Origin: a virus
Length of the DNA stretch: 37,221 bases
Virus record (IMG/VR): IMGVR_UViG_3300044796_000655
Location: 1 to 37,221 of that record
Strand: one strand, 5' to 3'
Below, one piece after another: positions 13,611-24,776 of this stretch. The notes beneath the pieces were generated by a model. That model made no database searches. It was not told the DNA's origin and was given only the letters and a program-made list of their open reading frames with translations. The position numbers and the translations under genes are program-made. How positions within the stretch are numbered: position 1 is the stretch's first letter; each line of letters begins with the position of its first letter.

Positions 13611-14273
13611 ATGGCGCGAAAGCAAAGACCGAGAACGGGGGAGCCAAGGGCGAAGCACCAGCCCTTCGCGATCGACAAACTGCCGTCCGCGTGGCGCGAC
13701 CGCATTATCGGCTTGCGCGCCAAGTGGATGACCTGGGAGCAGATCTCGCAGGAAACCACCGCGTGGGAGTGGGACAAGCTCGGCGACGCGCAAAAGGCGC
13801 TCTTCGTCAAGCGGCGTATTCCGCTGACCACGCTGCACCGCTGGTACGACGTCCAGGTGCAGCAAAAGTTGACGGAGATCGCCACGGAGCGCCAAGCGTC
13901 GCTGGCCATCGCGGAAAAGTTGGGCGCCGGCGGATACGAGAAGCTGGACCAATCGGTGAAAAACGCGATGGCCGACGTAGTGTTCGGCTACGCCAAGGAT
14001 TCCAGCGACCCGGAATTGTTCCGCAAAGCGCTGGGCGAATTGGGCTGGCTGCTGGCGCGTAACCGCCAGTTGGACATCGCCAAGTTGAAGGTGGAAGTCG
14101 AGAAGGCCAAGGTGGACGAGCTGATTGGAAGGGCAGAGAAAGCAACGAATGACGCCGCGAAAAAACTCGGCAAGGGAGCCAAGCTCACACTCCAAGACAT
14201 CAACCGTCTCCGTGAGCGGACCTTTGGGCTCCCGCCCATCGAGCGAAGCGCTGCCGCCGGTACTCCAGCTTAG
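13611..14273 (+). CDS. Terminase small subunit (Mu gp27-like)
   Basis: This 220-residue protein starts at ATG 13611, directly after the previous stop. Residues 20-75 read IDKLPSAWRDRIIGLRAKWMTWEQISQETTAW ... RIPLTTLHRWY, an 'LP-x-x-x-R' opening plus an HTH as in Mu gp27/DUF3486 small terminases. The HTH would recognise packaging DNA. Residues 85-180 are helical and probably oligomerise into a ring. The gene is followed by the large terminase with a long overlap. Compared with Mu gp27 the N-terminal HTH region contains an insertion (WEWDKLGDAQKALFV). Confidence rests on pattern and gene order. Confidence 0.65.
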   Translation: MARKQRPRTGEPRAKHQPFAIDKLPSAWRDRIIGLRAKWMTWEQISQETTAWEWDKLGDAQKALFVKRRIPLTTLHRWYDVQVQQKLTEIATERQASLAIAEKLGAGGYEKLDQSVKNAMADVVFGYAKDSSDPELFRKALGELGWLLARNRQLDIAKLKVEVEKAKVDELIGRAEKATNDAAKKLGKGAKLTLQDINRLRERTFGLPPIERSAAAGTPA

Positions 14274-15801
14274 GCCGTATCAGCAACGCTGGATCGACGA
14301 CACGTCTCGCTTCAAGGGTGCGGTGAAGTCCGCGCGCATCGGCTTTTCGTTCGCCACGGCCGCGGAGGCCGTGCTCGATTGCATTGAGCATGACGGAACA
14401 ACGTGGACCGTGCTGAGCCATTCTAAATCCGGCTCCCAGGAATTCATCGAGAAAGGCGCCGCGCCGATTATCGAGGCCATGAGCGCGGTGGCTGAAGTGA
14501 CGCAGGAGCTGTTCGCCGATGAGTTGGGAGCAACCGACATTCAGGTGACGCGGATACATTTCGCGAACGGTTCGCGCATCATCGCCCTGCCCTCGGATCC
14601 GCGAACGGCTCGAGGATATCCCGGAAACGTGATTCTGGATGAGTTCGCGCACCATCAAGATTCCTATTCCATCTGGGCCGCAGTGTCGCGCCAAGTCGCT
14701 CTCGGCCACAAGATGCGCATCCTCTCGACTCCAAACGGCGAACAGGGAAAATTCTTTGACCTGGCGCGGGAGTTCGGGATGGCGGATGGCGTGGCTCCGG
14801 CAGCGAATCCCCAGAAGCAGGGCGCGTGGTCCTGGCATTGGATCGACGTCGACATGGCGATCCGCGAGGGTTGCCCAATCAACAAAGCCGAACAGATGGA
14901 TCTCTATAAGGGCGACCCGGACACTTTCGCTCAGGAATTTCTTTGCAGCTTCCTCAAAGCTGTGGGCGCTTGGCTTTCTCTGGAACTGGTTTCGCGGGCC
15001 GAGGACGAAAACGCCACGATGGAATGGCCGCCGGGCTACCTTCCCGTAGGCTCGCTCTTCTGCGGCATCGACGTGGGCCGCGATGGCGATCGCACGGTCG
15101 CCTGGCTCGACGAGCATATCGGCGACGTGGCCTGGGCGCGCATGGTGCTGCGGCTGTACAACACGCCGTTCTTCACGCCCGAGGGCGAATTTGCGAATAA
15201 CGATCAGGCGCGCATTTTGCTTCCCTGGATTCGCATGGCCGAACGCACGGCCATGGACTCGACGGGCATCGGGCTCGGGCTGTTCGAGTTTCTCGCTTCG
15301 AAATGTCCCGGCCGCGTGATGGGCTTGAACTTCGGCGGCTCGATTCCAGCGGAGAATTCCGCTGTGACGGCCGGGACGCAGAACGTGAAGATCAAAACGG
15401 ACCTGGCCGTGCGCATGAAGCAGCGCTTCGAGCAGGGCCGCAACCGCATTCCCCACGATCCGCAGATTCGCCAGGAGCTGCAGGCCATCAAAAAGGAATA
15501 CTCCGGCGGCGCGGTAAAGTTCGACGCGCCGCGAATCGAAGTGGATACGGCCGTCGCGGGCGGGAAGAAGCGCAAAGTCTTCGCGCACGCGGACACGTTC
15601 TGGGCCAAGGCCATGGCGGACTTCGCGGCAGCCAGCGCGCCGGCGGCGGTGTTCGCGCACGCCGATGCGGCCGATCCGCGCGCGACGCGCGAGCCGCATG
15701 GTGCGCTCTCGCAATTGCTCACGGACCTGGTGGCGCGCGAGCACGCGGAAGGGCGCCACGTTTCATCCGAGCAGCGGCAGCGGAGGACGATATGGAGCTG
15801 A
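14212..15801 (+). CDS. Terminase large subunit (Mu gp28-like ATPase/nuclease)
   Basis: This is a 529-residue protein from GTG 14212 (62-base overlap); ATG 14149 is an alternative start. ATPase domain: adenine-binding RPYQQRW (21-27), a deviant Walker A KSARIGFSFA (39-48), Walker B VILDEFAHH (140-148), coupling motif LSTPNG (171-176). Nuclease domain: CGIDVGRDGDRT (284-295, first metal Asp 287) and AMDSTGIG (347-354, Asp 349). It drives ATP-dependent DNA packaging through the portal and cuts DNA. The Walker A lacks the usual GK(S/T), relying on an Arg as in some terminases. Gene order (small subunit, this, portal, F-like) is as in Mu. Confidence 0.85.
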   Translation: MSGPLGSRPSSEALPPVLQLRPYQQRWIDDTSRFKGAVKSARIGFSFATAAEAVLDCIEHDGTTWTVLSHSKSGSQEFIEKGAAPIIEAMSAVAEVTQELFADELGATDIQVTRIHFANGSRIIALPSDPRTARGYPGNVILDEFAHHQDSYSIWAAVSRQVALGHKMRILSTPNGEQGKFFDLAREFGMADGVAPAANPQKQGAWSWHWIDVDMAIREGCPINKAEQMDLYKGDPDTFAQEFLCSFLKAVGAWLSLELVSRAEDENATMEWPPGYLPVGSLFCGIDVGRDGDRTVAWLDEHIGDVAWARMVLRLYNTPFFTPEGEFANNDQARILLPWIRMAERTAMDSTGIGLGLFEFLASKCPGRVMGLNFGGSIPAENSAVTAGTQNVKIKTDLAVRMKQRFEQGRNRIPHDPQIRQELQAIKKEYSGGAVKFDAPRIEVDTAVAGGKKRKVFAHADTFWAKAMADFAAASAPAAVFAHADAADPRATREPHGALSQLLTDLVAREHAEGRHVSSEQRQRRTIWS

Positions 15802-17306
15802 CGCTGCTGAAACTTCGTGACGCCGCCATGGTTTGCCGGGCCAAGGAGCAGGAAAAGGAAAAGCGCGTGGCGGAAGCGGTGTCGCCGGAACTGTTCTCGC
15901 TGCTGGCGGGCGACGCGGAAGACGCCACGTTCCGCAGGATCACCTCGCCGGCGACGATGCGCGATCTGAACCCGCTGATGCACGAACGCATGCAGCAGGT
16001 GTGCTTCTTCCTGGCGGTCACCACGCCGTTCGGCAAACGCATCATCCGTCTGCTCACCGACTACGTTGTGGGCGAGGGTTTCAAAGTCATAGCCAACGAA
16101 GCGGAGCTGCAAGCCGTGGTGGACCGTTTCTGGGAAGACTCCGTTAACGACATGGCCCAGAACTGCGACTCGTGGTTTTCCGAGCTGATGACCTTCGGCG
16201 AAATCTGCCTGCCGGTCGCGGTGAATCCCGTGGACGGCTTCGTGCGCATGGGCTACATCGATCCGCAGAAGATCGAAGCGGTCGAGTATTCGTTGATGCA
16301 GACCGGCACGTCCCAGGAAGTGACCGTGCCGATCGCGGTGCGGCTGCGCCGGGGAATCGGCGAGAGCGAAGGGCGCCGGCTGGAGATCATTCATCAGGAC
16401 GAGGACGTGAACTCGCCCACGTTTGGGCAATCGAAGGGCGACTGCTTCTATTTTGCGATCAACAAGGCCAAAGCGGCCTCGCGGGGGATCTCCGAGCTCT
16501 TCGCGCTGGCTGACTGGATCGACGTCTTCGACAACATGATTTTCGACTTCGCGGACCGCGTGCGCCTGCTGAATTCCTTCGTGTGGCATTACGTCGTGAA
16601 GGGCGGCGACGATCCGGCCGTTCAGAAGATTCGCGACAAGGTGATGAAGTCTCCGCCGCGCCAGGGCGGCATAGAAGTCACCAACGACCAGATCTCCATC
16701 GAGGCGCGCACGCCGGACCTGAAGGGCGCGGACATGGTCAATACCGAGCGCGTGGTGAAGAACTACGGCCTGGCGGGAGCGGGATTTCCGCCCTGGTTTT
16801 TCGCGGACGCCGGAAACACGAACCGCGCGACCGCGGATGAGATGGCCGGACCGACGGGAAAGATGCTGACGAACCGCCAAAACATTCTGCGGCGCATCGT
16901 CACGCAGGTGATGAACTACGTGATTGCCCAGGCCATCGCGCATGGCGTGCTCTCGCAAAGCATGGACCTGGGCTGGAACCTGCAGGTGCCGGACCTGCGC
17001 ATGAAGGACATGGCCCAAGCGGCGACGGCACTCCAGACCGTGGCGAACGCCGCGGGCATTGCCGAGGATCGCGGGTGGATCCGCGCCGAAACGGCCGCGC
17101 GGGCGTTTCACACCGTCCTGACGCAGGTCGGGGTCGAGGTGGAATCCGGGGAATTCGACGCGGCGCAAGCGGACAAGACAGCGCGCGAGGCGAAGCAGCA
17201 GGACGCGTTGAATTCGCAAAAGAACCTGGCGGCCGCGCTCGTGGCGAAAAAGAATTCAAAGAACGCGCTGGCAGACGCGACGCCCGCGACTCAGGCGGTG
17301 CAATGA
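15792..17306 (+). CDS. Portal protein
   Basis: This 504-residue protein overlaps the terminase by 10 bases, behind GGAGGACG. Portal landmarks: an N-terminal helical part with LLTDYVVGEGFKV (wing start), the WF-x-E-L-M-x-x-GE-x-x-LP stretch, VRMGYIDPQKIEAVE, a GISELFALADWIDVFDNM clip/stem transition, AFVWHYVV-type strand, PPWFFADAGNTNRATADE (crown-side motif) and a long helical C-terminus rich in Ala and Lys. It forms the dodecameric DNA channel and docks the terminase. Position directly after the terminase and before the Mu F-like gene supports this. The last 60 residues (QADKTAREAKQQDALNSQK...) are probably a flexible barrel tail. Confidence 0.85.
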   Translation: MELTLLKLRDAAMVCRAKEQEKEKRVAEAVSPELFSLLAGDAEDATFRRITSPATMRDLNPLMHERMQQVCFFLAVTTPFGKRIIRLLTDYVVGEGFKVIANEAELQAVVDRFWEDSVNDMAQNCDSWFSELMTFGEICLPVAVNPVDGFVRMGYIDPQKIEAVEYSLMQTGTSQEVTVPIAVRLRRGIGESEGRRLEIIHQDEDVNSPTFGQSKGDCFYFAINKAKAASRGISELFALADWIDVFDNMIFDFADRVRLLNSFVWHYVVKGGDDPAVQKIRDKVMKSPPRQGGIEVTNDQISIEARTPDLKGADMVNTERVVKNYGLAGAGFPPWFFADAGNTNRATADEMAGPTGKMLTNRQNILRRIVTQVMNYVIAQAIAHGVLSQSMDLGWNLQVPDLRMKDMAQAATALQTVANAAGIAEDRGWIRAETAARAFHTVLTQVGVEVESGEFDAAQADKTAREAKQQDALNSQKNLAAALVAKKNSKNALADATPATQAVQ

Positions 17307-18223: not shown

Positions 18224-18419
18224 ACGATCTTGGCAGGGACTGGCAAACATCAACCAGGCCCACTTCCGTGGGCACGGGGAAGGCAGAGACTGCAGGCCGT
18301 AACAATTCATGGCGCGCGGCCGCAAGAAGGACGCGCGCTGTTTCTGGCGCAACGGATAGCGGTACATCGAGAGATGGAGGCACTCGGGCAGTTTCGTTCG
18401 CTGGCCCTTGCCAATTGAG
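18224..18419 (+). other. Ambiguous segment between exported protein and Mu F-like gene
   Basis: These 196 bases hold two competing short frames. One starts at TTG 18230 (62 residues, ending ...REMEALGQFRSLALAN at 18418, one base before the next ATG) and looks helical. The other starts at ATG 18220 (67 residues, ending 18423) and is Thr/Arg/Ser-rich. A third frame, shared with the following gene, has two stops (18300-18302 and 18357-18359) yet encodes a plausible fragment MARGRKKDARCFWRNG. Codon use separates none of them clearly. I would keep 18230-18418 as a weak gene candidate only. Confidence 0.3.
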
Positions 18420-19313
18420 ATGAGCACGCAAGACCAATTCGCCGCGAAGGTCGCCGAGCTGATCAGGCAGGCCAAGACGTTTGGCCCGGAGATCCGCGCC
18501 AACGTGATGGAGATGCTCGAGGAAGCGCGCAAGAAAATCGTGGGCGAACTCTCCGCGATCGACGACCAGAGCTACATGGCTGCGCAGCTCCGCGTGCTCT
18601 CGCAGGAGATCAAGAAAAGCATGGAGCAATTCTCCACGCAGTTCACGGACGCGGTGAATAGCGCGCAAGACGACGCTTTCGACCTGGGCACGGCGACCAT
18701 CGACCAGCCGCTGGCCGCCGCGGGCTTCCCGTACAAGAGTTTCGTGGGCCTGGACACGTCCGCGCTCTCGATCGCGCAGGGTTATACCGCCGACCTGATT
18801 TCGGGACTGACGAAGGATGCGGCGGCCAAGTTGAATGCCGCGATCCAACGCGCCTTCCTGGGCGGCCAAAGCGTTTCGGACATCATCGCGCAAGTGGGCC
18901 GCGCGATCGGTGGCGACAAATTCAGCGGACTGTTTTCGCCCATCGGCGCGCGCGCGGAAACCATCGCGCTTAACGAAGTTCTCCGCGTGCACTCGATCGC
19001 GGGGCAGGCGCGCCTGGAAGACCTCGCCGATCAGATTCCCGCGCTGCAGAAACAGTGGCTGCACGTTCCCGCGTCGCTGGCTCCGCGCATTGCGCATATC
19101 TTCGCCAGCGGCCAGGTGCAGGACGTTGGTGATCCGTTCCTGGTGGACGGCGAGGAGCTGATGTATCCGCGCGATCCCAACGGGGAGCCGGAAAACACCA
19201 TCAATTGCCACTGCATGCTGGCGCCTTACGTGGATCAGAGCCTGCTGGAGGCCACGCCGTCGCACAAAAAGATTTTGAGTGATTTGGGGCTGGAAGTATC
19301 CGCGACGGCCTGA
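18420..19313 (+). CDS. Mu F-like head morphogenesis (minor head) protein
   Basis: This 297-residue protein starts at ATG 18420. The N-terminal half (1-90) is a charged coiled helix. The C-terminal half carries the Phage_Mu_F landmarks in order: ARAETIALNEVLRVHSIAG, KQWLHVP, APRIAHIFASGQV, DPFLVDGEELMYPRDP, and ENTINCHCMLAP with the paired Cys near residue 263-265. In Mu and SPP1 (gp7) such proteins bind the portal or capsid interior and are needed for correct head assembly and DNA ejection. The gene follows the portal after the exported-protein insertion. Assignment is secure at family level. Confidence 0.85.
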   Translation: MSTQDQFAAKVAELIRQAKTFGPEIRANVMEMLEEARKKIVGELSAIDDQSYMAAQLRVLSQEIKKSMEQFSTQFTDAVNSAQDDAFDLGTATIDQPLAAAGFPYKSFVGLDTSALSIAQGYTADLISGLTKDAAAKLNAAIQRAFLGGQSVSDIIAQVGRAIGGDKFSGLFSPIGARAETIALNEVLRVHSIAGQARLEDLADQIPALQKQWLHVPASLAPRIAHIFASGQVQDVGDPFLVDGEELMYPRDPNGEPENTINCHCMLAPYVDQSLLEATPSHKKILSDLGLEVSATA

Positions 19314-19693: not shown

Positions 19694-19734
19694 TCTCGTC
19701 GATCCAAAAAACAGAGAAGTAAAGGAGCATAGCC

Positions 19735-22476
19735 GTGGCCGCAAAAACGAAGAGCATGGACGGGAAGGAACTGACGGCGTCGAACTTCGCCTATGTGGGC
19801 GACGCCAACGATCCGGCGACCTGGCATCTGCCCATTCCCGACGCGGCGCACCTGAAAGACGCGCTGGCGCGGTTCAATCAAACGGACCTCCCCGACGCGG
19901 CCAAGAAACGCGTGGCGAAGCGGCTGCTGGCGGCAGCGAAGAAGTTCGGAATCGACGCCAGCGGCTTCGCCAGCGAGCACGGCTTGAAGACTTCCGAGGC
20001 CGAGGATTACTCCTTCGAGGAGCTTCAGGACGCGTTGCAGCAGGCGCTGCAGGAGAAGTTCGGCCGCGATGAGCACGGCTATCGCCGCTACTGTCTCTGC
20101 GAAACGTTCCCGGATTATCTGATCGCGCAGGGGCCGGACGGCGAGCTCTACCAGATCGCGTACTCGGTTGGCGCGGACGAAGAAGACATCACGCTCGGAG
20201 ATCCCCAGGAAGTGGAGACGGCATACGTGCCCGTTGCGGAGGCCGCGCGCTTCCTGGCCAAGGAATCCGCCGCGCCCGAATTCACCGACGGATGGACGTG
20301 GCCTGTCGAAGTGATGAAAGCGGGCGAGGCCTTCGGCTCCGTGGAGGACGCCAACGGGAAGATGTTGCAGCTTGGCCATTATTTCCCCAGCGAATTCGTC
20401 GGCGAAGTGGCCAAAGCGGTGGAAGGCGCGCGCTTCGGTCGAAGACACCCGCTAAGTGAGGAAGAAGTAAACGACCCGGAGCGGACGGCCGGATGGTTCA
20501 CCGGCAGCGCGATGGCTGGCGATGCCGCGCGCGCGAAGCTGAACCTGCTGAAGAACGAGACGAACCTGCGCGAGAAGCTGCTGGCCGCGAGGGAAAGCGG
20601 CAAGCTGGACCTCTTCGGACTTTCGTTCCTGGGTTATATCTCGTTCAAGCCGGGAAAAATCGCTGGCAAGGACTACTTCGTCGCCCAGAGGCTGGCGAAG
20701 CTGGTCAGCGTGGATATGTGTAATTCGGCCGGCGCCGGCGGTTCGTTCCTGAATCCCCTGCGCGTGGCGGCCTCGAAACAAATTTTCGCGGAAATCGCGG
20801 CAATGCAGAGAGCGCAACGCAAAACGCGCGCGCCAGCCGCGGCCGCAACGCAAGCTTCACCGGGCGCGAGCCTGGGAAGGAACAGCGGCAGCCCGCAAGC
20901 TGCTAGCCACCAAAGGAGCGGACCTATGAAGGATCACATCCTGAAGGTGCTCGAAGCGCTACGCACGATTAACGCGGGACGCGCCGCAGAGCTCCAGAAG
21001 GAATTCGAAAACACGGCGGAGGAAAAGCATTCCGAATTCTTCGCCAAAGTCAGCGAGGCCGTCACGCAGGAAATGCCGGCGGCGCTGATCACCAATGCGG
21101 CCAACGCGAAGGCGGCGATGGAAGGGTTGACCAACGCGGCGAAAACCGCGCTGGATAACCAGAACCTCGAAGTGCTGGCCAAGACCAAGGAAGCCCTGGA
21201 CAACGCGAGGAAAGTCAATTTCACCTCGACGCTGGACCGCAAACTCACCGAATCGAAGTTGCCGGTCCCGGCGGCTTCGCTGGTGCGCGAGCGTTTCGCG
21301 GACCAGGTCGCGGAAGACAAGGACGTGGACGCGTACATCATGAAGACGCGCCAGGCCTTCGCCGCGTTCAGCAACGTGGGAACCATCGGCACCGGCGGCA
21401 CGATCGAAGTCGGGCGCAACAGCCTGGACAAGATCCAACTCGCCTCCGACGCCATGCTGGGCGTGAAGGAAGCGCTCAAGGACAGGAACGTGAAGCCCTT
21501 CCGCGGGCTGCGCGAGATGTATCGTTACTGCACTGGTGACGAGGAAGTGCACCTCGACGGCCGCGGCTTCTACCGCGTTTCCGAAGCCATCGCCTCCTCG
21601 GACTTCCCGCAGATCCTGCTCAGCTCGCTGACCAAGAAGCTGCTCCAGGATTACGCGGAATTCCAGATCGTTCCCGGCCTGGAAAAGCTCTACACCACTT
21701 CGATCCTCGGCGATTACAAGCCGCAAGACCGCGTGCGCATGGGCTATCTGGGCGATTTGCCGACGGTGACCGAAGCCGCGGCTTACGTCGAGCTGACGAA
21801 GCCCACGGACGAGAAGATCACCTATTCGATCCTGAAGAAGGGCGGATTGCTAACCATCTCGGAAGAGACGATCCGCAACGATGACCTGGGCAAAATCGCG
21901 CAGTTCCCGAACCGCCTGGCTCGCGCCGCGCGGCACACCCTGGCGACGTTCGTCACGGCGTTCTTCATCACCCCGCCGGCCTATGATCCCGACACCATCG
22001 CGTGGATGCACGCTTCGCATGCCAACCTGGGCAGTACGGCGCTTTCCGCGGCCGAGTTGGACGCCCGCGCGATCCTGCTGGCCAAGCAATCGGAGAAGGA
22101 CAGCACCAACCGGCTGGGCTTGACGCTCGACTGGATCATGATCCCGGTCGATCTGAAGCCCACGGCCCAGATGATCAACCGCAACATGACAGGCACGAAC
22201 AGTTGGGTCGACAAGTTCGGCGAAAACGAAGAGAACATCATCGTCAACCCGCTGCTGACCGACGTGAACGACTGGTACGGCGGGACCCTCCCGAATAACG
22301 CGCCGTTCCTGGAAATCGGCTTCCTGGACGGCTACCAGACGCCGCAGCTCTTCATCGCCAACCTGCCCACGCAGGGCACGCAATTCACCAACGACCAGCT
22401 CCAATACAAGGCGAAGTTCGTCTTCGGCGGAAAGCCGATCGATTATCGCGGCGTGTTCAAGGAAGTGGTCGCCTAA
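19735..22476 (+). CDS. Prohead protease-scaffold-major capsid fusion protein
   Basis: This is a single 913-residue frame from GTG 19735 (AAAGGAG upstream). Residues 15-75 (FAYVGDANDPATWHLPI ... RFNQT ... AAAKKFGI) are a short domain often seen in phage proteases. Residues 180-345 look like an HK97/Mu-type prohead protease: RRHP with likely catalytic His 238, GLSF with likely Ser 297, and the closing KLVSVDMCNSAGAGGSFL block. A low-complexity linker (358-397) leads without a stop into ATG 20926 (residue 398). The remainder is a helical scaffold-like stretch (400-510) and an HK97-fold-length capsid part. An intact protease and capsid normally occupy separate genes; self-cleavage at the linker is a likely outcome. 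Confidence 0.7.
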   Translation: MAAKTKSMDGKELTASNFAYVGDANDPATWHLPIPDAAHLKDALARFNQTDLPDAAKKRVAKRLLAAAKKFGIDASGFASEHGLKTSEAEDYSFEELQDALQQALQEKFGRDEHGYRRYCLCETFPDYLIAQGPDGELYQIAYSVGADEEDITLGDPQEVETAYVPVAEAARFLAKESAAPEFTDGWTWPVEVMKAGEAFGSVEDANGKMLQLGHYFPSEFVGEVAKAVEGARFGRRHPLSEEEVNDPERTAGWFTGSAMAGDAARAKLNLLKNETNLREKLLAARESGKLDLFGLSFLGYISFKPGKIAGKDYFVAQRLAKLVSVDMCNSAGAGGSFLNPLRVAASKQIFAEIAAMQRAQRKTRAPAAAATQASPGASLGRNSGSPQAASHQRSGPMKDHILKVLEALRTINAGRAAELQKEFENTAEEKHSEFFAKVSEAVTQEMPAALITNAANAKAAMEGLTNAAKTALDNQNLEVLAKTKEALDNARKVNFTSTLDRKLTESKLPVPAASLVRERFADQVAEDKDVDAYIMKTRQAFAAFSNVGTIGTGGTIEVGRNSLDKIQLASDAMLGVKEALKDRNVKPFRGLREMYRYCTGDEEVHLDGRGFYRVSEAIASSDFPQILLSSLTKKLLQDYAEFQIVPGLEKLYTTSILGDYKPQDRVRMGYLGDLPTVTEAAAYVELTKPTDEKITYSILKKGGLLTISEETIRNDDLGKIAQFPNRLARAARHTLATFVTAFFITPPAYDPDTIAWMHASHANLGSTALSAAELDARAILLAKQSEKDSTNRLGLTLDWIMIPVDLKPTAQMINRNMTGTNSWVDKFGENEENIIVNPLLTDVNDWYGGTLPNNAPFLEIGFLDGYQTPQLFIANLPTQGTQFTNDQLQYKAKFVFGGKPIDYRGVFKEVVA
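20912..20928 (+). promoter_or_regulatory. Internal ribosome binding site and start of capsid part
   Basis: AAAGGAG (20912-20918), seven bases, then ATG 20926. This is a textbook site inside the fused frame and in phase with it, so the scaffold-capsid part can be translated on its own at high level. Confidence 0.75.
20926..22476 (+). CDS. Major capsid protein with N-terminal scaffold (internal start product)
   Basis: This 516-residue product of internal ATG 20926 lies in frame with the longer protease fusion. Its first 110 residues are helical and Ala/Glu/Lys-rich (scaffold or delta domain, removed in many HK97-type heads). Next comes a capsid-like body: FRGLREMYRYCTGDEEV, PTVTEAAAYVELTKPTDEKITYSILKKGGLLTISEETIRND, then RLARAARHTLATFVTAFF and an acidic C-terminus with NAPFLEIGFLDGYQTPQLF. 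It is by far the best candidate for the main shell protein from its position after the protease and before the connector genes. High-level independent synthesis is expected because hundreds of copies are needed against few protease copies. Confidence 0.75.
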   Translation: MKDHILKVLEALRTINAGRAAELQKEFENTAEEKHSEFFAKVSEAVTQEMPAALITNAANAKAAMEGLTNAAKTALDNQNLEVLAKTKEALDNARKVNFTSTLDRKLTESKLPVPAASLVRERFADQVAEDKDVDAYIMKTRQAFAAFSNVGTIGTGGTIEVGRNSLDKIQLASDAMLGVKEALKDRNVKPFRGLREMYRYCTGDEEVHLDGRGFYRVSEAIASSDFPQILLSSLTKKLLQDYAEFQIVPGLEKLYTTSILGDYKPQDRVRMGYLGDLPTVTEAAAYVELTKPTDEKITYSILKKGGLLTISEETIRNDDLGKIAQFPNRLARAARHTLATFVTAFFITPPAYDPDTIAWMHASHANLGSTALSAAELDARAILLAKQSEKDSTNRLGLTLDWIMIPVDLKPTAQMINRNMTGTNSWVDKFGENEENIIVNPLLTDVNDWYGGTLPNNAPFLEIGFLDGYQTPQLFIANLPTQGTQFTNDQLQYKAKFVFGGKPIDYRGVFKEVVA

Positions 22477-22521
22477 TCATAGGCAAAAGCCTGGCGATTC
22501 GAACGAGTGAATGATTCCGGC

Positions 22522-22546
22522 GCGGGCCGGTGAAGAACCGGCCCGC
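22522..22546 (+). other. GC-rich hairpin after the capsid gene
   Basis: GCGGGCCGGT (22522-22531), loop GAAGA, ACCGGCCCGC (22537-22546): a perfect 10-bp stem in the 97-base gap after the capsid gene. It lacks a U-run, so it is more likely a mRNA 3'-stabilising or pausing structure than a terminator. Confidence 0.6.
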
Positions 22547-22573
22547 AGCCGCAAAGTTGGAAGGAGAAATCGC

Positions 22574-23041
22574 ATGTCTCAGTTTGGGCAAGAAGTAAAG
22601 CCTCCTCGCGTGGGCTTGCAGTTGACTCGCGCGCATACCATCACCCTGCACAAGGCCGGCAACACTTCGGTCGCGAACGACGTGGCGGGGCACGAGTTTC
22701 AGCGCCGCGGGCGCATCGTCGAGGTGGAAACCTACCTTGGCAACATCGGCGCGGTTTCCGGAGCGACGCAGGTGGACGGCAAGCTGAATGGCACGTCGAT
22801 CTTCTCGACGGTGCCCAGCATCGCCTACAACGCCGCAACGAAGCGCCGGCGCGACGCCGCCTCCGCATGCATTCTGCCGACGGGCGGGGCGGGCAGCGGC
22901 GTGATGACGCCGGTTTCCGGCGAGCCTACGGGCGTGCGCGTGCAGCCCGGCGATTACTACCGCGTGGACGTGTTGGCGGTGGCGGGAACGGTCGGAACCG
23001 ACCTTTCGGTGTACCTCCACGTCGTTTTCGAAGACGTGTAA
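22574..23041 (+). CDS. Putative capsid decoration protein
   Basis: This 155-residue protein starts at ATG 22574 behind AAGGAGAAAT. It is beta-rich: ITLHKAGNTSVANDVAGHEF, GRIVEVETYLGNIG, TSIFSTVPSIAYNAAT, GVRVQPGDYYRVDVLAVAG, LSVYLHVVFEDV. Strand pairing and the YYRVDVLAVAG core resemble small trimeric beta proteins of phage surfaces. Position right after the major capsid gene is the usual place for a decoration or head-fibre protein. No motif proves it. It is separated from the capsid gene by the hairpin, and may be expressed from its own strong ribosome site. Confidence 0.5.
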   Translation: MSQFGQEVKPPRVGLQLTRAHTITLHKAGNTSVANDVAGHEFQRRGRIVEVETYLGNIGAVSGATQVDGKLNGTSIFSTVPSIAYNAATKRRRDAASACILPTGGAGSGVMTPVSGEPTGVRVQPGDYYRVDVLAVAGTVGTDLSVYLHVVFEDV

Positions 23042-23053
23042 CACAAAGCTGCG

Positions 23054-23767
23054 ATGACGCACACGATCGACCAGTTCCAGAATCAGCGTGACATCGTCCT
23101 CCAGGACGCGGCGATGAAACTCGCCACGGGGGACCGCGACGCGCTGCTGCAGCAGGCCATCGTGCAACGCTACTCGAAGGATCGCTCGCGGGAAATCGTG
23201 ACGGACATGCCGGGGCTCGGCACATCGTTCGTCAATATGCCCGCGAGCACTCCCGATTCTTTCGAGGACGGATTTTCGATCATCAAGAGCGTCGAATATC
23301 CCATCGGGCAAGTTCCTTTGAGCCTCGTGCTGGAAGAGAACTGGCAAATTTATCGCGCGCCTGCACCGACGGGCCTGCAAGTGCTGTTTATCGCCAATCA
23401 GCCCATGACGTCGGAGGTAGTGCGCTTCACCTGGACGGCGCGGCACAAGCCCGACGGCTCGACCGTGCCGGACGTGGATTTCGAGGCGGTGTGCGATTAC
23501 GCGGCCGGCCTGTCTTTCGCGGCGCTCGCCGCGATCTACACGCAGACTGGCGATGCCACGATCATGGCGGACAGCGTGAACTACCGCACCAAGGGCCAGG
23601 AGTACGCGGGGCTGGCGAAGGCGGCCGCCAAACGCTATTTCGATCACGTTGGCGTGGCGGCGGACGACAAAGCCGCGCAAGCGGGCCCGGCGATCGCCAC
23701 GGGCAGCATGCACGAACTTTTGGGAATGGGGCTGGACCGGCTGACGCACCGCAAGGCGTCGAGATGA
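23054..23767 (+). CDS. Putative head-tail connector/adaptor protein
   Basis: This 237-residue protein has a mixed fold: an N-terminal helix and tail (QRDIVLQDAAMKLATGDRDALLQQAIVQRYSKD), a beta part (VEYPIGQVPLSLVLEENWQIYR ... VLFIANQPMTSEVVRFTWTARH) and a C-terminal helical part (FEAVCDYAAGLSFAALAAIYTQ ... QEYAGLAKAAAKRYFDHVGV). The C-terminal helices resemble the L-x-x-R/K-Y-x-x-H connector type that follows the capsid gene in many Mu-like siphoviruses. Gene position (after decoration, before the gp10-like protein) suits a neck protein. The family is not firmly recognised. Confidence 0.5.
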   Translation: MTHTIDQFQNQRDIVLQDAAMKLATGDRDALLQQAIVQRYSKDRSREIVTDMPGLGTSFVNMPASTPDSFEDGFSIIKSVEYPIGQVPLSLVLEENWQIYRAPAPTGLQVLFIANQPMTSEVVRFTWTARHKPDGSTVPDVDFEAVCDYAAGLSFAALAAIYTQTGDATIMADSVNYRTKGQEYAGLAKAAAKRYFDHVGVAADDKAAQAGPAIATGSMHELLGMGLDRLTHRKASR

Positions 23768-23771
23768 CGGC

Positions 23772-24299
23772 GTGAGCGTGAGGATCACAATCCGGGGACT
23801 GGACACGGCGACCGCGCAGGTGCAAGCCGCGGTGCGCACCGGCGTTTCGAACGGCCTTGCGGTTGCCGGCGCGCGCGGTGAATTCCTGGTGAAGCAAAAC
23901 ATCACGCATCCCTATAGCGGCCGGCCGCCCGCGGTTTCCACGGGGATCCTGGCGAACGCGATCTCTTTCAAAATCGCGCGGGAAGTTGGAATCTCGCGCG
24001 TTGTGGTGTTCGCCATGCCGCCCGCTGACGTCTATGTGGATCCCGTGGAATACGGCAGCCGGCCGCACTTTCCTCCGGTGAGCGCGCTGCTGATGTGGGT
24101 TGAGCGCAAATTCCATCCGGGAACGGAAAAGGCCGCGCTGAAAATCGCCTGGGCCATCGCGGTGAGCATGTCGAAGCGCGGCATGAAACCTTTCCTGATG
24201 TTCGCGCGGGCGTTTGCCGTGCTGCAGACGGAGCTGCAGGGAATCTTTACGAACAGCATCGCGAGCGCGATCCAGGCCGCGGGATTGGCGAAAAAGTAG
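23772..24299 (+). CDS. HK97 gp10-like tail/neck completion protein
   Basis: This 175-residue protein starts at GTG 23772, four bases after the previous stop. The middle has VYVDPVEYGSRPHFPPVSALLMWVERKF, the V-E-(Y/F)-G-x-x-x-H-x-P-x-x-P/x-L block typical of HK97 gp10-type proteins, which act at head-tail joining or tail completion. The N-terminus (MSVRITIRGLDTATAQVQAAVRTGVSNGLAVAGARGEFLVKQN) gives the usual beta start and long helix. The C-terminal helix is Ala-rich. The family assignment is moderate to good. Confidence 0.65.
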   Translation: MSVRITIRGLDTATAQVQAAVRTGVSNGLAVAGARGEFLVKQNITHPYSGRPPAVSTGILANAISFKIAREVGISRVVVFAMPPADVYVDPVEYGSRPHFPPVSALLMWVERKFHPGTEKAALKIAWAIAVSMSKRGMKPFLMFARAFAVLQTELQGIFTNSIASAIQAAGLAKK

Positions 24300-24776
24300 A
24301 TGGCACTCATGGAAATCAAGGCGCGAATTCAGGCGATGGTCGCCGCGGCCGACCCCGCCGCCAAGGTGTGGCCGAGATTGCGATATCTCAACGCGGAATC
24401 GCAGGCCGATCAGTTGGCGGGCACGGACGGCACTCTGCACGTATGGTTTATTTGGCGCGAGGGCTCAGCTCTTGAGGATGAGGTTATCAATCAGAACTTC
24501 ACAGAACAGACGGACACGCTTGTAATCGAAGGCTTCTACGCGATGAACGATGCGAACAATTCAGACGGGGAGTTCGAATCGAACGTGGACGCTGTGCTCA
24601 AATCAATCAGCGATGACCGGCGCTGCGCACCGGGCGGCACGAAGCTGGGCGGTACCGTGATGTCCGCGAGAGCGCCGCAGCGCAGAAAAACCGATCTAGT
24701 TATGTATGGCCCGAGCCAAGTGCTCTGTCATCACACTGAGATCGCGATGACGGTGGTATCGAGAGATTTGCAGTGA
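24300..24776 (+). CDS. Putative tail terminator/neck protein
   Basis: This 158-residue protein has its ATG sharing the A of the preceding stop. Short helix (EIKARIQAMVAAADPAAKVWPRLRYLN), then strands (TLHVWFIWREG, TLVIEGFYAMND) and a helix (NSDGEFESNVDAVLKSISD), ending with two strands (LVMYGPSQVLCHHTEIAMTVVSRDLQ). This alpha/beta order (helix, beta sheet, helix, edge strands) is shared by tail terminator proteins such as lambda gpU-type. Position between the gp10-like protein and the tail tube genes fits exactly. Sequence alone does not prove it. Confidence 0.5.
   Translation: MALMEIKARIQAMVAAADPAAKVWPRLRYLNAESQADQLAGTDGTLHVWFIWREGSALEDEVINQNFTEQTDTLVIEGFYAMNDANNSDGEFESNVDAVLKSISDDRRCAPGGTKLGGTVMSARAPQRRKTDLVMYGPSQVLCHHTEIAMTVVSRDLQ

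Follow-up and report, generated by a model that had tools for sequence, protein, structure and literature searches.

It was found that a prohead protease, a scaffold and a major capsid protein are encoded in one open reading frame of a virus, and that this frame has an in-phase internal start, preceded by a Shine-Dalgarno sequence, at the protease/scaffold junction. The internal start is conserved among related genes beyond codon chance. With a probability of roughly 0.78, this is a nested dual-start gene, whose long protease-scaffold-capsid product and short scaffold-capsid product would be co-assembled and then cleaved by the protease to give an HK97-fold shell. The window, meaning the whole stretch of DNA analysed here, is 37,221 nt long (positions 1 to 37,221 of the IMG/VR virus record IMGVR_UViG_3300044796_000655). 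The head genes and the main parts of the fused gene are as follows.

14125..15801, + strand: terminase large subunit gene (phrog_2, 9e-31)
15303..17306, + strand: portal protein gene (phrog_10963, 7e-35)
18408..19313, + strand: head morphogenesis (MuF-like) gene, a neighbour of the fused gene (phrog_2468, 3e-34)
19721..19727, + strand: Shine-Dalgarno sequence AAAGGAG of the full-length start (7-nt spacer to GTG 19735)
19735..22476, + strand: fused prohead protease-scaffold-major capsid gene, 913 aa, a single open frame from GTG to TAA
19735..19989, + strand: N-terminal domain, residues 1-85 (weak DUF6582-like match over residues 26-75)
20743..20925, + strand: low-complexity linker, residues 337-397 (mostly at pLDDT <50 in AlphaFold2)
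20912..20918, + strand: internal Shine-Dalgarno sequence AAAGGAG (7-nt spacer to ATG 20926), the subject of the conservation tests
20926..22476, + strand: nested scaffold-capsid frame, 516 aa, a putative second product (junction start codon in 30/30 non-redundant family members)

The genes upstream of the fused gene follow the usual order of head genes, namely terminase, portal and MuF-like gene; the true start of the portal gene probably lies downstream of 15303, given the overlap with the terminase frame. Direct reading of the sequence bore out the 913-codon frame at 19735-22476 that the original prediction had reported. The landmarks that it named were also placed correctly: the histidine of RRHP is residue 238, the serine of GLSF is residue 297, SVDMCN is present, and AAAGGAG at 20912-20918 is followed by the in-phase ATG 20926. 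Since this ATG is residue 398, the extra part of the long form, which had been put at about 397 residues, is exactly 397 residues long. The two starts share the same AAAGGAG and the same 7-nt spacer and differ in the start codon, which is GTG upstream and ATG internally. The frame is not a product of chance, because its N-terminal part matches phrog_29592 by itself and its C-terminal part matches capsid families. This profile of 893 positions, which has no assigned function, is matched by the N-terminal half alone at 5.7e-07 (profile positions 78-367) and by the whole protein at 7e-73, the best stretch being the C-terminal half, and all 32 aligned family members match it. In the 32-sequence family alignment, the linker of residues 337-397 varies in both length and sequence. 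Residues 1-85 are absent from many relatives and are present only in the closest ones.

Is the same fusion found in related phages? When viral contigs and prokaryote genomes were scanned, 48 related loci turned up, and Microcystis phage Mae-JY22 was added to them. All 39 relatives with a complete gene, at 27-66% identity, carry it as a single uninterrupted frame, about 600-940 aa long, with no stop in the linker, as the original prediction had proposed to check, and a search for a split gene among these 39 found none. Apart from L039 and L040, the remaining loci run off the ends of their contigs. Because these 39 relatives, which stem from other samples and genomes, all have the frame uninterrupted, an indel or an assembly artefact is excluded, and the chance that two genes were joined by a sequencing or assembly error is negligible. 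In distant relatives from an Acidobacteriota-phylum sample (L139-L141), the protease, a decoration-like protein and the capsid are encoded by three separate genes, an arrangement that possibly pictures the unfused state.

The protease part of the fused gene has the following features.

20218..20742, + strand: prohead protease domain, about residues 162-336 (family alignment, phrog_15531, AlphaFold2 and T4 gp21 fold match)
20446-20448, + strand: codon of His238, in RRHP
20623-20625, + strand: codon of Ser297, in GLSF, invariant in 32 sequences
20713-20715, + strand: codon of Asp327, invariant in 32 sequences

The histidine is present in the equivalent region of most relatives and aligns imperfectly in the 32-sequence alignment. 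The 'head maturation protease' family phrog_15531 is matched by 18 of the 32 aligned members, and the Peptidase_S77 profile (PF03420) by two of the 32 relatives (best E 0.022) and not by the window protein. The N-terminal part searched alone against Pfam gave no protease match, the protease alignment, searched by sequence against solved structures, had no hit, and the sequence similarity between the window protein and T4 gp21 is not significant. The AlphaFold2 model of residues 1-397 has a mean pLDDT of 78.5. The best match to it among solved structures is T4 gp21 (5jbl), a separate protein in T4, with a Foldseek value of 6e-5 and a Z score of 11.1 over 146 residues at 3.3 A (residues 162-334 of the predicted model); the herpesvirus proteases are the next fold matches, at a Z score of about 5. 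The modelled fold predicts a protease of the gp21/herpesvirus kind, as opposed to ClpP.

Downstream of the internal start, three parts were distinguished.

20926..21381, + strand: helical scaffold/delta-like domain, residues 398-549 (AlphaFold2)
21373..21414, + strand: disordered hinge, residues 547-560 (AlphaFold2), where the stand-alone capsid homologues L039 and L040 begin
21403..22473, + strand: HK97-fold major capsid domain, residues 557-913 (PF25209 and Foldseek)

The 152 residues of the scaffold part are nearly all helix in the predicted model. The capsid part matches Phage_capsid_4 (PF25209) at 3.7e-37, with 129.5 bits vs a gathering cut-off of 27 bits, and the predicted model of residues 398-913 has a Foldseek match to HK97 (5.6e-08) and to other capsids. 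Thus, domain matches and predicted folds support the earlier view that protease, scaffold and capsid share one frame. It is likely that the maturation cleavage occurs at the hinge of residues 547-560 and that the mature capsid protein begins near residue 557, since the capsids of L039 and L040, which stand alone, start there and the stretch is disordered. Over window residues 557-913, these two genes (L039:5911-7080 and L040:5881-7074) show 78% and 72% identity, respectively. They are accompanied by neither protease nor scaffold and lie between a cI-like repressor upstream and a tape-measure-like gene downstream; L039 additionally has a Mu-like transposase. Judging from this gene content, the two loci, which come from Acidobacteria MAGs, may represent satellite-like elements or reduced prophages.

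The conservation of the internal start was assessed in three sets of fused genes, <75% identical: set A comprises the fused gene of the window and its family members, 30 genes in all; set B comprises 23 genes with HK97-type proteases; and set C comprises 17 genes with ClpP. A core of GGAG or GAGG was scored 5-17 nt upstream of the junction start, and the null was obtained by redrawing synonymous codons in 4000 trials. Since this null keeps the protein sequence, an excess of Shine-Dalgarno sequences is not a by-product of the residues before the methionine. Genes were counted as independent, with thinning to <45% identity as a guard against shared descent. In set A, an in-phase ATG or GTG is found at the protease/scaffold junction in 30/30 genes, and the core precedes it in 26 (null mean 12.7, maximum 21; 0/4000) and is lacking in four. 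As a control, the core was scored at ATGs elsewhere inside these genes and precedes 17 of 242. In a column scan over part of the gene in set A, starts that follow a Shine-Dalgarno sequence peak at the junction column (20/30), while the maximum anywhere in 100 synonymous shuffles is 16.

The choice among nearby ATGs in set A made use of the Shine-Dalgarno sequence, and some of the hand choices in set B were first spotted via it; because the hand choice was thus partly guided, figures from a blind rule are also given. When the ATG nearest by alignment is taken in set A, blind to the Shine-Dalgarno sequence, 24/30 genes have the core vs a null maximum of 19. A junction Shine-Dalgarno sequence is present in 18/22 hand-chosen cases of set B (blind rule 17/23, null maximum 15) and in 10/12 hand-chosen cases of set C (blind rule 11/17, null maximum 10). 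The column scan of sets B and C was not significant, because their linkers align poorly. Pooled and thinned to <45% identity, the sets give 22/25 vs a null maximum of 18. Among 14 actinophage fusions, a junction start is present in 11 and absent from SallySpecial, Emperor and EricDab, and the Shine-Dalgarno sequences of these 11 are not above the synonymous null (7/11 vs 5.0; 528/4000). The proposed internal start is thus kept across relatives beyond what the protein sequence explains. By sequence comparison, it is well supported that the junction start with its Shine-Dalgarno sequence is under selection, as a nested start of the kind known from lambda C/Nu3 and Mu I/Z.

How would such a gene work? 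Initiation at GTG 19735 would give the protease-scaffold-capsid protein of 913 aa, and initiation at ATG 20926 would give a scaffold-capsid protein of 516 aa, the counterpart of HK97 gp5 including the delta domain. Local folding of 70 nt of RNA puts the internal GGAG of the window in a paired stretch and leaves the upstream GTG largely paired too, so that the ratio and the relative strengths of the two starts cannot be read from the sequence; ribosomes arriving from upstream would open the paired internal Shine-Dalgarno sequence. The long and short products would co-assemble via their common scaffold and capsid domains. The short product would form the shell, and a minority of the prohead subunits would bring in the gp21-type protease, facing inward. 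Once assembly is complete, a cut by the protease near residues 547-560 would release both the scaffold and the protease, and an HK97-fold shell would remain. As a general rule, fused tailed-phage genes with gp21-, HK97- and ClpP-type proteases may keep an internal start, with both kinds of subunit made and the strength of the starts setting the number of proteases per prohead; the balance tips slightly in favour of this rule.

Would the full-length fusion alone suffice? If it were the only product, every subunit would carry a protease that is cut off and degraded at maturation, and the internal site would be a relic of an ancestral capsid gene. Such an ancestral start is plausible, since the distant L139-L141 have separate protease and capsid genes, and any full-length translation gives the fusion because none of the 39 complete fused relatives has an interrupted frame; the local fold also hides the internal Shine-Dalgarno sequence in the window. 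A relic should decay, yet the start and the core persist in a highly divergent linker, and their persistence exceeds synonymous chance, down to <45% identity and in three protease classes, which makes a single product unlikely. A protease on every capsid subunit would fill the prohead with hundreds of proteases, a problem to which the conserved internal start is a simple answer. Shine-Dalgarno-like sequences within genes have been proposed to slow ribosomes, and the internal site might mainly be a translational pause between the folding of the protease and that of the capsid and not a true start. Pausing, however, would not depend on a start codon placed at a constant short spacing, whereas an in-phase ATG or GTG is always there in set A, and the short product would be the exact scaffold-capsid domain pair. 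A mere pause is very improbable. The dual-start reading predicts a measurable ratio of protease-bearing to plain subunits. If it is true, the current annotation of these genes with one product (often labelled just 'protease' or 'hypothetical protein') misses what is likely the main capsid precursor.

The protease-scaffold-capsid fusion is already known, and the view that it is without precedent was not borne out. There are two NCBIfam models of prohead protease/major capsid protein fusions, NF045540 and NF045541, and the window protein scores below the cut-offs of both: 162.9 bits vs a curated cut-off of 525 bits for NF045541 (profile positions 181-631 only) and 139.6 vs 475 bits for the ClpP-like NF045540 (profile positions 151-650 only, beyond the ClpP part). 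A sample of 398 genomes from the bacterial phylum of the Dongia genome bearing a related locus (L043) includes 24 in which NF045541 exceeds its cut-off. Effantin's 2010 study of Gifsy-2 is said to speak of a 'tripartite capsid gene'. In the Gifsy-2/F10/MD8 type (NF045540, phrog_133), protease, scaffold and HK97-fold capsid are likewise in one gene, and an in-phase ATG with an AGGA-type site lies at the protease/scaffold junction of Gifsy-2 (M221; region 22471-24561 of its record) and F10 (M220), as in the window; the protease of this type is ClpP-type, whereas that of the window is predicted to be gp21/herpesvirus-type. According to PMC8508860, protease, scaffold and capsid of MD8-type phages are encoded by a single gene, and the word 'internal' is absent from that paper.

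The original prediction named lambda C/Nu3 for a nested scaffold and omitted the many known protease-scaffold-capsid fusions. The nested start of lambda C/Nu3 goes back to Shaw and Murialdo 1980, a reference given in PMC8508860, and PMC4378225 describes, for Mu and Mu-like phages, an in-phase scaffold start with a Shine-Dalgarno sequence inside the protease gene. In lambda C/Nu3 and Mu I/Z, an in-phase start inside the protease gene gives a shorter protease-free product, as is proposed for the window; the nested product is the scaffold alone and the capsid is separate, while the nested frame of the window includes the capsid. A dual start would thus extend their principle to the capsid. In HK97 gp4/gp5, the scaffold is fused to the N-terminus of the capsid and removed by the prohead protease (PMC8508860); the scaffold-capsid fusion is as in the window and the protease, unlike that of the window, is a separate gene. 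No description of an internal start in fused genes was found in the literature passages searched. The conserved internal start thus appears undescribed for fused genes as far as those passages go, and its priority is uncertain.

The NF045541 fusions (Stenotrophomonas S1 and Pseudomonadota prophages) and the actinophage fusions (RRH1, Maggie and cluster EE) have the same order in one frame as the window, whose protein differs from both in its 913 aa and two extra N-terminal regions. In small actinophages, such genes are commonly annotated as 'major capsid and protease fusion protein'; PMC7302621 and PMC5513430 describe their protease-scaffold-capsid fusions, and the portions searched mention no internal start. 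In actinophages of 14-18 kb, the fused capsid ORFs (L059:4439-6424 of RRH1, L142-L144, L147 and L148) have an N-terminal extension of roughly 90-120 aa, which at least in RRH1 is hydrophobic and holin-like. Residues 9-93 of the RRH1 protein match stand-alone proteins of other Rhodococcus phages, and EricDab and Emperor have a second Shine-Dalgarno sequence and ATG ahead of the protease. These actinophage ORFs are possibly a four-part fusion with nested starts.
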